From positions 3,030,384 to 3,094,383 of the forward strand of contig NC_014219.1 in assembly GCF_000093085.1 (NCBI RefSeq): DNA of 64,000 nucleotides, written 5' to 3'. Within the stretch, counting starts at the first letter, position 1; each line of letters starts with the position of its first letter. Both the position numbers and the translations under genes were made by a program. Shown piece by piece: positions 31,026 through 34,754 of this stretch. The DNA comes from [Bacillus] selenitireducens MLS10 (lineage in GTDB: Bacteria > Bacillota > Bacilli > Bacillales > Salisediminibacteriaceae). The notes under the pieces are model-generated. The model was not told where the DNA came from. It made no database searches and was given only the letters and a program-made list of their open reading frames with translations.

Positions 31026-31054
31026 TTGATAAACCCAGTCTAACAGGTTATACT
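31026..31054 (+). promoter_or_regulatory. Candidate xylR promoter P1
   Basis: TTGATA (31026-31031) and TATACT (31049-31054) are spaced by 17 bases and point toward xylR. The -10 box abuts the XylR operator, so this promoter would be autoregulated. Confidence 0.6.
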
Positions 31055-31065
31055 TAGTTTGTCTA
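31037..31065 (-). promoter_or_regulatory. Candidate xylA promoter
   Basis: Reading the minus strand, TAGACA (31065-31060) and TAGACT (31042-31037) are 17 bases apart, five and four matches of six to consensus. The -35 box lies inside the XylR operator, which explains xylose-dependent control. Confidence 0.6.
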
Positions 31066-31080
31066 TTGAATTAACTAAGT
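31052..31080. promoter_or_regulatory. XylR operator between xylA and xylR
   Basis: The arms ACTTAGTT and AACTAAGT are separated by 13 bases. The core, TTAGTTTG at the left and AACTAA at the right over 25 bp, has the same half-sites and overall length as the known B. subtilis xyl operator. It overlaps both divergent promoters. Confidence 0.88.
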
Positions 31081-31093
31081 TTACCGAAAAAAG

Positions 31094-31107
31094 TTGAAAC
31101 GCTTTCA
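31094..31107. promoter_or_regulatory. cre-like site (CcpA)
   Basis: TTGAAACGCTTTCA matches the catabolite-responsive element consensus TGnnARCGnWWWCA at all defined positions but one. It lies upstream of the xylA -35 box and before the second xylR promoter. Confidence 0.55.
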
Positions 31108-31130: not shown

Positions 31131-31159
31131 TTGCCATTTTCCGCCGTGACAGGTACAAT
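31131..31159 (+). promoter_or_regulatory. Candidate xylR promoter P2
   Basis: TTGCCA (31131-31136) and TACAAT (31154-31159) are spaced by 17 bases, each five of six to consensus. It lies outside the XylR operator and could supply a basal level of repressor. Confidence 0.6.
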
Positions 31160-31206: not shown

Positions 31207-32370
31207 ATGGCCTCATATCAATTGGAAGTGAAACAGCAAAATAAAAAGCTCATCCTGAAAACCGTCTATCAGCTTGAACCGATCTCACGGGCAGACTTAG
31301 CAAAAGTCCTCTCATTAACGAAAGCCACGGTCTCCAATCTCGTTGATGAACTCGTGCAGGAGCATTACCTCGAACAGGTCGGACTCGGAAAATCGAGCGG
31401 CGGGAGAAGACCGCTCATGCTGAAGATCAATGAAAAGGCCGGTTACACGATCAGCGTGGACATCGGCGTCAACTATATCCGCTCCATTTTAACCGACCTG
31501 AAGGGCGGCATTATGAAGAAAGCCGTGGAGACGACGGATACAAATGTGTATGAGGACACGATGCGCTACATTGAAACAATGGTCAACAACCTCATCAATG
31601 ACATGGATGACGCACCGTTCGGACTCGTCGGCATCGGGTTTGGTGTCCCGGGGCTTGTCGATTCCGACGGGACCGTTATCTCCACACCGAATCTGGACTG
31701 GCAGGAATCCGATATCCGAAAACGGTTTGAAGCAGCCTTTGACGTGCACGTCATTGTCGAAAATGAAGCCAATGCCGGCGCTTTTGGAGAGAAGTCATTC
31801 GGTGAAGGGATCTCATCAGACCACTTCATCTATATTTCCGGCGGAATCGGCATCGGCGTCGGTCTGATTTTTGACGGGGTTCTCTACAGAGGACGGAACG
31901 GCTTTACAGGGGAACTCGGCCACACGATTATTCAAATGGACGGCCTGACATGCAGCTGTGGAAAAAAAGGATGCTGGGAGCGGTATGCGTCTGAACTCTA
32001 TATTCTCAAAGAGTATGAGAAGCTGAAAGGGATGCCGTGGCATCAGCTCACCCTTGAAGAGGCTGTAACAGAAGCCGCTGCAGATGAAGACGTCCGGGCC
32101 ATTTTTCACCGTGCGGCAAGGCACTTCGCCATCGGTCTGACGAACATCATCAACAGCTTCAACCCGGAAAAAATCATCGTCGGCAACCGCCTCACCCAGG
32201 CAGAGCAGTATATGCTGCCGGTGATTGAAGAGGTGATCGCCGAAACAGCGATCTCCCCGATTGCAAAGGGCGTCGGGATCCATTTTAACAACACCGATCA
32301 GCTCGCAACGGTACTCGGTCTGTCTGCGTTCTCCATCGAACGCTTCTTTGACCGCGAGTTCAGCACCTGA
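31207..32370 (+). CDS. xylR: Xylose operon repressor XylR (ROK family)
   Basis: This 387-aa repressor releases its operator when xylose binds. It has an N-terminal winged helix (ISRADLAKVLSLTKATVSNLVDEL), the ROK sugar-binding fold with VDIGVNYIRSILTDL, GELGHTIIQMDG, and the zinc motif CSCGKKGCWE. I chose the ATG at 31207 with AAAGGGAG upstream; the frame is open 15 codons further. The gene is divergent from xylA. Its stop codon lies only five bases before the predicted omega RNA scaffold of an IscB element, and no terminator separates them. Confidence 0.93.
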   Translation: MASYQLEVKQQNKKLILKTVYQLEPISRADLAKVLSLTKATVSNLVDELVQEHYLEQVGLGKSSGGRRPLMLKINEKAGYTISVDIGVNYIRSILTDLKGGIMKKAVETTDTNVYEDTMRYIETMVNNLINDMDDAPFGLVGIGFGVPGLVDSDGTVISTPNLDWQESDIRKRFEAAFDVHVIVENEANAGAFGEKSFGEGISSDHFIYISGGIGIGVGLIFDGVLYRGRNGFTGELGHTIIQMDGLTCSCGKKGCWERYASELYILKEYEKLKGMPWHQLTLEEAVTEAAADEDVRAIFHRAARHFAIGLTNIINSFNPEKIIVGNRLTQAEQYMLPVIEEVIAETAISPIAKGVGIHFNNTDQLATVLGLSAFSIERFFDREFST

Positions 32371-32375
32371 TTATC
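32360..32375 (+). other. Predicted natural guide segment of the omega RNA
   Basis: In IscB systems the 5' end of the omega RNA, about 16 bases flanking the left end of the element, acts as the guide. Here those bases cover the last two xylR codons, its TGA stop (32368-32370) and five following bases. The exact boundary is inferred from the first scaffold helix beginning at 32376. Confidence 0.5.
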
Positions 32376-32590
32376 GTCAACAACCCAACGACTAAAGTCG
32401 TGGGCTTGTAAAAGCCCCTGTTGACTAGCCTAAGTCTTTCGAGGACTACGTTGGATTGGTCACGACACCTTACGGTGCGGATTCTAGCTGTAAGCCCTGT
32501 CGCTTGTGATTAAAAGCCCGAACGGGTTGTGGGCGGTGTTGCAAGCGTAAAAGCCTTTCCAACATTGGCGAAGAATACCTGACTCCTGAA
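32376..32590 (+). ncRNA. Omega RNA (HEARO-type) upstream of iscB
   Basis: Several helices can be drawn. GTCAACA (32376-32382) pairs perfectly with TGTTGAC (32419-32425). GGGCTT-GTAA-AAGCCC forms a GNRA-capped hairpin (32402-32417). AGTCTT pairs with AGGACT (32433-32447), CACC with GGTG (32466-32477), CGCTTG (32501-32506) with CAAGCG (32542-32547), and CCC-GAAC-GGG closes at 32517-32526. A long-range helix GTTGGA (32450-32455) with TCCAAC (32558-32563) encloses the multibranched core. Position directly upstream of iscB and size of about 200 bases fit the HEARO/omega RNA class, which guides IscB to DNA. Confidence 0.82.
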
Positions 32591-32604
32591 AGGAGGTACA
32601 CGTT

Positions 32605-33858
32605 ATGTTCGTGTACGTATTAAACAAAAACGGCCAACCTTTAATGCCGTGCAAACCGAGAAAAGCACGATTATTGTTGAACGAAAAGAAAGCAAAAGTT
32701 GTGAAGCAAACCCCTTTTACGATCCAACTGCTTTACGGTTCAAGTGGCTACAAACAGCCTGTTTCATTGGGTGTGGATGCCGGAACCAAGCACATCGGAT
32801 TCAGCGCACCGACGGAGAAAGACGTGTTATTTGAAGGTGACGTTCAACTGAGAACGGACATTCAGGATAAACTGGCAACAAGACGGCAGTACCGACGATC
32901 AAGAAGAAGCCGAAAAACAAGGTACAGACAACCGAGATTCGACAATCGAAAGAAAGAAAAAGGATGGCTTGCCCCTTCCGTGCAACATAAAGTGGATTCG
33001 CATATCCGTTTTGTTGAAAAAGTCCATGCGTTGTTGCCGATCACAACAATAACAGTTGAAGTGGCACAGTTTGATATTCAGAAAATCAAAAAGCCTGAAA
33101 TCGAAGGGGAAGGCTATCAACAAGGCGATCAGTTTGGGTTTTGGAACGTCAGGGAGTACGTGTTTTTCAGAGACAACCATCGTTGTCAGCACTGCAAAGG
33201 GAAGTCGAAAGACAAGATACTGAATGTTCATCACATCGAAAGCCGTAAGACAGGCGGTGACAGCCCTGACAACCTCTTAACGTTATGCGAAACGTGCCAC
33301 AAGAAGATTCACCGTGAAGGATTGGAACACCTCTTTCAGCGAAAGAAAAAACCCTTTCGTGATGCTTCGCAGATGGCGGTCATGCGTTGGTTTATCTACA
33401 ACGGGCTGAAAGCCCGCTATCCTGATGCGAAGCTGACGTATGGTTATCTGACGAAGAATACCCGCATAGAACACAGCTTAGAGAAATCTCATGCTGTCGA
33501 TGCCCGTTGTATCAGTGGTCATCCGACGGCAAAACCAAGCGAAGCCACGTATCAGTACAAGCAGGTTCGCAAGAACAACCGGCAATTACACAAGACGACG
33601 ATTTTAAAAGGCGGGATTCGCAAGGCAAACAAAGCGGAACGTTTCGTGAAAGGTTTCCAATTATTCGATAAGGTGCTTTGCGAAGGGCAACCCTGCTTCA
33701 TTTTCGGGCGACGAAAAACAGGGTCGTTTGATTTGCGATTGCTCGATGGCACAGTTATCAGCAGGGGGAAAAGTTATAAAAAAATAGCGTTAAAAGAAAA
33801 AGCCACGTCGTGGCTTGTTGAAAGGAGTGAAACCGTCCACATTCCTCCCCATGAATGA
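32605..33858 (+). CDS. iscB: RNA-guided endonuclease IscB
   Basis: This 417-aa nuclease uses the omega RNA to find and cut DNA and belongs to the ancestral group of Cas9. It has the PLMP motif at residues 12-15, RuvC-I with Asp58 in LGVDAGTKHIG, an arginine-rich bridge helix at about 93-115, RuvC-II with Glu152 in VEVAQFD, an HNH domain at about 185-240 with CxxC pairs (194/197 and 228/231) and His209-His210, and RuvC-III with His296 and Asp299 in HAVDA. The remaining 115 residues would contact the target-adjacent motif and RNA. AAAGGAGG lies eight bases before the ATG. All catalytic residues are intact and the frame is unbroken, so it is probably active. Confidence 0.93.
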   Translation: MFVYVLNKNGQPLMPCKPRKARLLLNEKKAKVVKQTPFTIQLLYGSSGYKQPVSLGVDAGTKHIGFSAPTEKDVLFEGDVQLRTDIQDKLATRRQYRRSRRSRKTRYRQPRFDNRKKEKGWLAPSVQHKVDSHIRFVEKVHALLPITTITVEVAQFDIQKIKKPEIEGEGYQQGDQFGFWNVREYVFFRDNHRCQHCKGKSKDKILNVHHIESRKTGGDSPDNLLTLCETCHKKIHREGLEHLFQRKKKPFRDASQMAVMRWFIYNGLKARYPDAKLTYGYLTKNTRIEHSLEKSHAVDARCISGHPTAKPSEATYQYKQVRKNNRQLHKTTILKGGIRKANKAERFVKGFQLFDKVLCEGQPCFIFGRRKTGSFDLRLLDGTVISRGKSYKKIALKEKATSWLVERSETVHIPPHE

Positions 33859-33880
33859 ATTCGGGGGTTTCCGGTGGACG
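33834..33880 (+). repeat. Right-end hairpin of the IscB element
   Basis: CGTCCAC pairs perfectly with GTGGACG around an inner CTCCCC / GGGGG helix. The iscB stop codon (33856-33858) lies inside the loop region. This is typical of the imperfect palindromes that Y1 transposases recognise at IS200/IS605 right ends. Confidence 0.7.
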
Positions 33881-33905
33881 TATCTCATGAAATGACAGAA
33901 TACGA

Positions 33906-33946
33906 AAGCCGGACGCCTTCCATGATCGGAGGTGCCCGGCTTTTTT
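33906..33946 (+). terminator. Terminator, probably the original one of xylR
   Basis: AAGCCGG and CCGGCTT form the base of an imperfect long hairpin followed by six T. It lies 26 bases beyond the right end of the IscB element. With the element removed it would stand directly after the xylR stop, so the insertion seems to have separated gene and terminator. Confidence 0.8.
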
Positions 33947-34694: not shown

Positions 34695-34723
34695 TTGACG
34701 TAAACGCTTACAGACTGTATGAT
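34695..34723 (+). promoter_or_regulatory. Strong sigma-A promoter toward the sensor kinase operon
   Basis: TTGACG (34695-34700) and TATGAT (34718-34723) are 17 bases apart. The start would be near 34730, leaving a leader of about 208 bases before the histidine kinase. Confidence 0.72.
34699..34712. promoter_or_regulatory. cre-like site inside the promoter spacer
   Basis: CGTAAACGCTTACA matches the CcpA consensus TGnnARCGnWWWCA at all but the first position. It lies between the -35 and -10 boxes of the plus-strand promoter, an arrangement that gives direct catabolite repression. Confidence 0.65.
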
Positions 34724-34731
34724 GAAATCAC

Positions 34732-34754
34732 CTTAATTTAATCATTAAACTAAG
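34732..34754. promoter_or_regulatory. Palindromic operator in the divergent 34.7-kb region
   Basis: CTTAATTTAAT and ATTAAACTAAG form an 11-bp inverted repeat with one mismatch around a single base. The right half AAACTAAG equals the half-site of the XylR operator, but the spacing is four bases shorter. It lies just after the plus-strand start and within the spacer of the minus-strand promoter. XylR or the AraC-type regulator are the likely ligands. Confidence 0.6.

Follow-up and report, generated by a model that had tools for sequence, protein, structure and literature searches.

Inserted between xylR and its terminator, within the 64,000-nucleotide stretch of DNA analysed here (the 'window'), lies an intact IscB/HEARO element: the nuclease frame is open and its catalytic positions are kept, both boundaries can be placed, the equivalent site is empty elsewhere in the genus, and the genome carries four copies. 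From this placement we predict that transcripts of xylR read through into the element, and that the nuclease cuts xylR wherever the element is missing; taken as a whole, we consider this account probable. The component parts of the element, numbered from the first base of the window, are:

32376-32583 (+): HEARO omega RNA; the element's left end is 32376 (RF02033; left junction common to copies L002 and L003)
32590-32596 (+): Shine-Dalgarno sequence of iscB, AAGGAGG (sequence)
32605-33858 (+): iscB, RNA-guided endonuclease, 417 aa (ORF, Pfam, NCBIfam, structure alignment)
33834-33880 (+): terminal hairpin of the right end, a quasi-palindrome (comparison of copies, fold)
33887-33891 (+): ATGAA abutting the right end, predicted TAM/target motif and part of the empty site (three copies; G001 empty site)

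The unbroken reading frame encodes a protein that scores 400.4 bits with the NCBIfam model NF040563 (guided_IscB; cut-off 175), with Pfam reporting both an RRXRR (3.1e-71) and an HNH domain (8.3e-9). In alignments to chains of solved structure the best partners are themselves IscB proteins, OgeuIscB (7xht) among them; the RuvC residues D58, E152, H296 and D299, plus H210 of the HNH domain, fall opposite D61, E193, H340, D343 and H247, the catalytic residues named for OgeuIscB in PMC9640706—D58 alone being matched to the OgeuIscB chain by script, with E152, H210, H296 and D299 read by eye from the printed alignment. The open frame, the model score and the five retained positions thus bear out the initial annotation, which had called an intact IscB with its RuvC and HNH catalytic residues. 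At 417 amino acids, the protein reaches only 24.7 bits with the Cas9d model (cut-off 375), and so does not score as a member of the Cas9 family. Fusion of IscB to other host proteins was also considered, and dropped: the Pfam column for the best 120 of 5541 matches contains no second host domain.

Upstream of the gene, the HEARO covariance model matches over its whole length (143.9 bits, E 5e-30), and so supplies the omega RNA that had been proposed 5' of iscB; nothing else in the 64 kb reaches an Rfam gathering threshold. The accompanying description of this RNA as 'strongly folded' is weak as a statement about energy, which is unremarkable (z -1.80; 13 of 200 shuffles equally good); the corresponding values for the right-end hairpin are z -1.04 and 32/200. 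The case for the element is therefore built on the covariance match and the comparison of copies, not on folding energy.

The genome (one contig of 3,592,487 bases) contains four copies, two of them full length and two partial, a multiplicity that the initial annotation did not mention. The second full-length copy, at tsaD (L002), is 98% identical to the window element; the partial copies comprise the first 712 bases only (L003) and the last 443 bases only (L004), the latter abutting a gene for a penicillin-binding protein (PBP). Three left ends start GTCAAC and three right ends finish GTGGACGTATCTyATGAA; the outer flanks differ. Because the copies have this terminal sequence in common, the right end, originally drawn at 33880, is better placed at 33886, giving an element of 1,511 bp (32376-33886). 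The site of each right end is empty in the genus: at xylR in G001, at tsaD in both G001 and G002 (directly before ATGAA), and at the PBP gene in G001. Thus ATGAA stands at 3/3 right ends with empty sites to match, the motif-bounded end by which an IscB/HEARO element is recognised, and since it is present once per insertion, no target duplication is seen. Judged by sequence, the junctions fit insertion beside an NTGA-type motif, which is the TAM given for the IsrB nickase (DtIsrB) in PMC9581776. The 712-bp left part has been cut off by what appears, by eye, to be an IS66-type element (L003:2212-3712). In the 443-bp right-end remnant (L004:1501-1943, minus strand) ATGAA forms the start of the PBP gene, whose native AGGAGG is found on the far side of the remnant; a short TGACGAA is shared at the deletion joint.

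There is no Y1 transposase (TnpA) in the element, and the genome's sole match extends over 80 of the 121 Y1_Tnp positions: an N-terminal part that runs into the end of an apparent tnpB gene (L009:1501-2100; by eye). As this only match is a fragment, mobility in this genome has probably stalled; the mobilising enzyme may have been lost or may lie outside known models, and few HEARO nucleases are found near TnpA, according to PMC9755519. The want of an intact Y1 transposase, together with the reduction of two of the four copies to fragments, would suit a silent relic, whose frame and RNA stay intact only because the insertion is young and from which nothing is expressed or cut. Against this, the two full-length copies have open frames and keep their catalytic positions, and their iscB genes differ, across 405 codons, by 11 synonymous changes (about 260 sites) and 7 non-synonymous changes (about 955 sites), as if under constraint, although most of the differences cluster in a single patch (codons 240-255). 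We consider a silent relic unlikely.

The insertion site is framed by two host features:

31207-32370 (+): xylR-like ROK regulator, host gene (ORF; ROK and MarR-type HTH; divergent from xylA/xylB)
33904-33944 (+): terminator hairpin of the xylR unit (fold -24.5 kcal/mol, T run; counterpart behind xylR in G001)

The start of xylR was picked by alignment with G001, the mechanical ORF running from 31162; as no xylR-specific NCBIfam model matches, the name rests on the ROK and HTH domains and on divergence from xylA and xylB. The element had been described as starting five nucleotides past the xylR stop (32370), with a terminator 3' of its right end, and both placements hold; the terminator is a hairpin followed by a run of T that a simple consensus scan did not list. 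An empty site is provided by G001, of the same genus, whose xylR is 72% identical at the amino acid level (G002, at 34%, lacks a close counterpart). In G001 the terminator hairpin comes directly after xylR, with the junction TATCATGAA intact and TATC joined to ATGAA; the sequence TGTATCATGAACC runs into the hairpin, where the window instead has GATTATC, the element, ATGAAATG and then the terminator. This supports the proposed insertion between xylR and its terminator, inside the transcription unit; to say that the element 'broke' that unit is too strong, because the terminator is kept downstream.

Two further features bear on how the element might be transcribed and guided:

31049-31083 (no strand): operator-like palindrome between xylA and xylR, of putative role (inverted repeat; conserved in G001)
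32359-32375 (+): predicted guide, 17 nt of left flank made up of the xylR 3' end and the next 5 nt (by analogy with OgeuIscB, whose guide duplex is 17 bp)

The guide of IscB is formed by the 5' portion of its omega RNA, and 17 nt pair with the target (PMC9640706). By analogy, the omega RNA here would have the end of xylR in its guide, placed in the roughly 17 nt to the left of 32376, and IscB would cut copies of xylR without the element, with RTGA as TAM; cutting of element-free sites would in turn favour retention or spread. Genome-wide, the guide followed by RTGA has no other perfect site: the element's own left junction comes with one mismatch, the best other place with two, and five places with three. 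With the guide taken from the left flank, a guided omega RNA would need a host promoter upstream, and a promoter inside the element would give no guided RNA. Read-through from xylR into the omega RNA and iscB fits the layout, and to this extent the first interpretation stands, given insertion within the xylR unit. Its further claim, that nuclease expression is thereby coupled to xylose, went beyond the evidence; we rate such coupling as plausible only, and have set it back from its place as the main story. Against read-through, a consensus scan places a terminator-like site within the end of xylR (32326-32343, 6 pairs), though at the rate of chance: six such sites were found in the scanned region, with 5.7 expected from shuffles.

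A promoter-like site (9 of 12) straddles the left junction (32348-32377, + strand), and speaks for the element having a promoter of its own in the left end, which would make iscB independent of xylR and leave the omega RNA without a host guide. A transcript that starts inside the element cannot, however, include the left-flank guide, and the upstream co-orientation of plasmid-borne relatives (below) also tells against an internal promoter, which strikes us as distinctly improbable. Any influence of xylose would depend on how xylR is controlled: the palindrome at 31049-31083 sits between divergent promoter-like sites, that at 31026-31054 (10 of 12) facing xylR, but a second promoter-like site, 31131-31159, lies about 48 bases beyond the palindrome. 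Domesticated regulation, in which read-through from xylR would let the host hold the nuclease under the control of xylose, could draw on this conserved palindrome and its neighbouring promoter-like site, but is very improbable: the element is absent from G001, the sole relative in the genus with this xylR, the other copies in the genome are at unrelated genes, and there is no sign of selection for xylose control.

Two sequences in the same part of the window, 31095-31107 near the xylA-xylR gap and 34700-34711 before a kinase gene, resemble cre sites of CcpA. A second operator-like palindrome (CTTAATTTAAT/ATTAAACTAAG) is found at 34732-34754, upstream of the sensor kinase gene, with a similar one at the same place in G001 (L014).

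If the guide is indeed supplied from outside the element, then IscB elements would be kept mainly in host transcription units running the same way. We examined 25 plasmid regions with relatives of IscB (six from 12 records, and 19 from 60 listed of 70 records), taking one per organism, picked before the neighbours were seen, and excluding records from pathogens of humans or animals; L106 is without annotation, which leaves 24 loci, and L109 is without an upstream CDS, which leaves 23 for the upstream count. The gene iscB and the nearest CDS upstream of it run the same way in 22/23 (the opposite being seen in L110), and iscB and the downstream CDS in 20/24; where the two flanks agree, iscB runs the same way in 18/18, or in 12/12 when six captured start codons are subtracted by hand. 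As a control, 61 of 79 neighbouring CDSs other than iscB in these regions share a direction, a rate at which 22/23 would arise with a chance of 0.02. Intergenic RTGA in the tandem gaps of the window divide 64 to 34 between the coding and the other strand, so that about 65% co-orientation is to be expected from site choice alone; against that expectation, the chance of 18/18 becomes about 4e-4 (by hand) instead of 4e-6. In a noisier set of 40, based on our own ORF calls, the upstream gene is co-oriented in 29 and opposite in 9, the other 2 having no ORF; at 29/38 this set is no more co-oriented than ordinary neighbours. The plasmid set shows the tendency clearly; in the noisier one it is unproved. 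What it would mean is that expression of a nuclease of the kind ancestral to Cas9 is tied to whichever host gene happens to precede the element; stated as a rule, guided IscB RNA would exist only where the host transcribes the left flank.

At the other end of the element, start codons recur. In 7/24 annotated plasmid loci the RTG at the right end is also the annotated start of the next gene:

L101, L104, L105, L109, L116, L119, L120: right-end RTG is the start codon of the next gene (annotation)

The same is true of the tsaD and PBP copies, in which the genes' own Shine-Dalgarno sequences lie to the left of the element. Bacterial start codons are often followed by A (PMC5850271), so that an RTGA motif will often meet them. 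By our own gene calls, 19 of the 98 RTGA sites lying between tandem genes of the window serve as starts; set beside 7/24 loci, this makes any special targeting of start codons an unneeded assumption, and the RTGA motif plus survival between genes may suffice.

In the tsaD copy, the gene concerned is one expected to be essential. In L002:1730-4042 (C1:589757-592069) iscB continues in frame into tsaD with no stop, a run of 771 codons with RRXRR, HNH and TsaD domains; this is the only place in the genome above the TsaD cut-off, a second, weak match being to a neighbouring gene that resembles tsaB. Its terminal hairpin is near perfect, matching at 22/23 positions where the other two right ends reach 13 and 15, and is shorter by one base; compared with those copies, the iscB stop is gone and the frame carries on. 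From the sequence, this stop loss looks like correction of an imperfect palindrome (quasi-palindrome correction), and TsaD would be made either as the fusion or by starting at the right-end ATG. An Anoxybacillus IscB of 419 aa (P0051) is named at its source as a YgjD/Kae1 (TsaD) family protein, a hint that an IscB element may adjoin tsaD there too.

Just 5' of the terminal hairpin many elements, mainly of Bacillota, carry AAGGAG or similar; in the window element the corresponding feature is:

33820-33827 (+): Shine-Dalgarno-like GAAAGGAG before the terminal hairpin, of putative role (sequence; right-end comparison)

We compared 50 right ends chosen by eye, which tally as 42 ATGA and 8 GTGA, a count that depends on that manner of choosing. 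Automatic choice by stem score was rejected, having given false hairpins in many loci. L074, L076 and L077 were removed; L003, L035, L050, L065, L075, L078 and L084 were assigned no right end; the duplicates L042, L062, L067 and L080 were left out and L099, L100 and L106 not used; and the annotated plasmid loci L107, L108, L112, L115, L117, L122, L123, L124 and L125 lie outside the set. Shine-Dalgarno 6-mers occur at -75 to -45 in 29/50 right ends; windows clear of this interval have them in 0 to 3 of the 50. With a slightly wider window the motif is present in 30/50 right ends and 14/31 sequence clusters (0-4 of 31 in seven control windows), and is not at that place in 17/31. Along the sequence it stands 39-69 nt from RTGA (median 59); once the predicted hairpins are closed the median falls to 11 nt, with 10-13 nt in 21/30 and extremes of 1, 2 and 39.

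We suggest that this Shine-Dalgarno sequence may drive translation of the abutting gene. Insertion between a gene's own Shine-Dalgarno sequence and its start codon would then see the displaced site replaced by the right end, whose terminal hairpin would bring the new site near RTGA and allow low-cost residence at start codons. An alternative, applicable to most of the 30, is that the motif is mere codon usage of iscB; it lies beyond the iscB stop in only 2/30 (L041, L114). A second alternative is that it pairs inside the right-end fold, being unpaired in only 16/30 predicted folds. It also counts against the proposal that the right-end fold in the window does no better than shuffles (z -1.04). 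At xylR itself the sequence has no visible use, since the ATG there opens only two codons. Our tentative proposal, to which we lend a little under even credence, is that the right end of IscB elements is a portable ribosome-binding site, bridged by its hairpin to RTGA, and that with the need for a host promoter at the left the whole would be built for operons; the ordinary orientation of the noisier set and the 17/31 clusters without the motif have lowered our estimate slightly. Should such a module be real, it would explain how start codons come to be occupied, even that of single-copy tsaD, without killing the host.

Among 398 genomes drawn from the class, 20 contain relatives at E 1e-50 or better, and at 1e-80 there are 4 in the 38 of the family of G205; HEARO is present in 43/47 and 9/10 of the IscB loci scanned. 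A few kb from one IscB element, in Eubacterium ruminantium, a Pistol ribozyme match was recorded (L039:379-454, minus strand; 65.6 bits). Within the titles and abstracts of the matches listed from the open literature, we found none on IscB elements at start codons, on their direction relative to host genes or on a ribosome-binding site at their right end. The 2009 HEARO paper reportedly noted ATGA or GTGA beside insertions, in which case that part, the motif, would be known already. A Shine-Dalgarno sequence has been noted at the opposite end, within the final hairpin of the omega RNA preceding isrB (PMC9581776).

Of characterised systems, the element belongs with the IscB/HEARO OMEGA systems of the IS200/IS605 superfamily (OgeuIscB; 7xht, 8csz, 7utn), having the same PLMP-RuvC-HNH protein, the same HEARO omega RNA 5' of the gene, a motif 3' of the target and the same catalytic positions. 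OgeuIscB differs in its length (496 aa, compared to 417 here) and in its NNRR motif (PMC9640706), where RTGA is predicted here from insertion sites. The NTGA TAM of DtIsrB (PMC9581776) more resembles the RTGA abutting our right ends, although IsrB is without the HNH domain found in this IscB. In IStrons, which combine a group I intron with IS605/IS607, an element end likewise makes insertion harmless (PMC4227781); they do so by splicing out of RNA, whereas the IscB counterpart, if real, would be a ribosome-binding sequence provided for the adjoining gene. For the hairpin itself, there is a parallel in T4 genes 38 and 25, where structure between the Shine-Dalgarno sequence and AUG shortens their spacing from 22 to 5 and from 27 to 11 nt, respectively (PMC3014915); those are fixed gene leaders, whereas the structure proposed here is the end of a mobile element and spans a longer gap.
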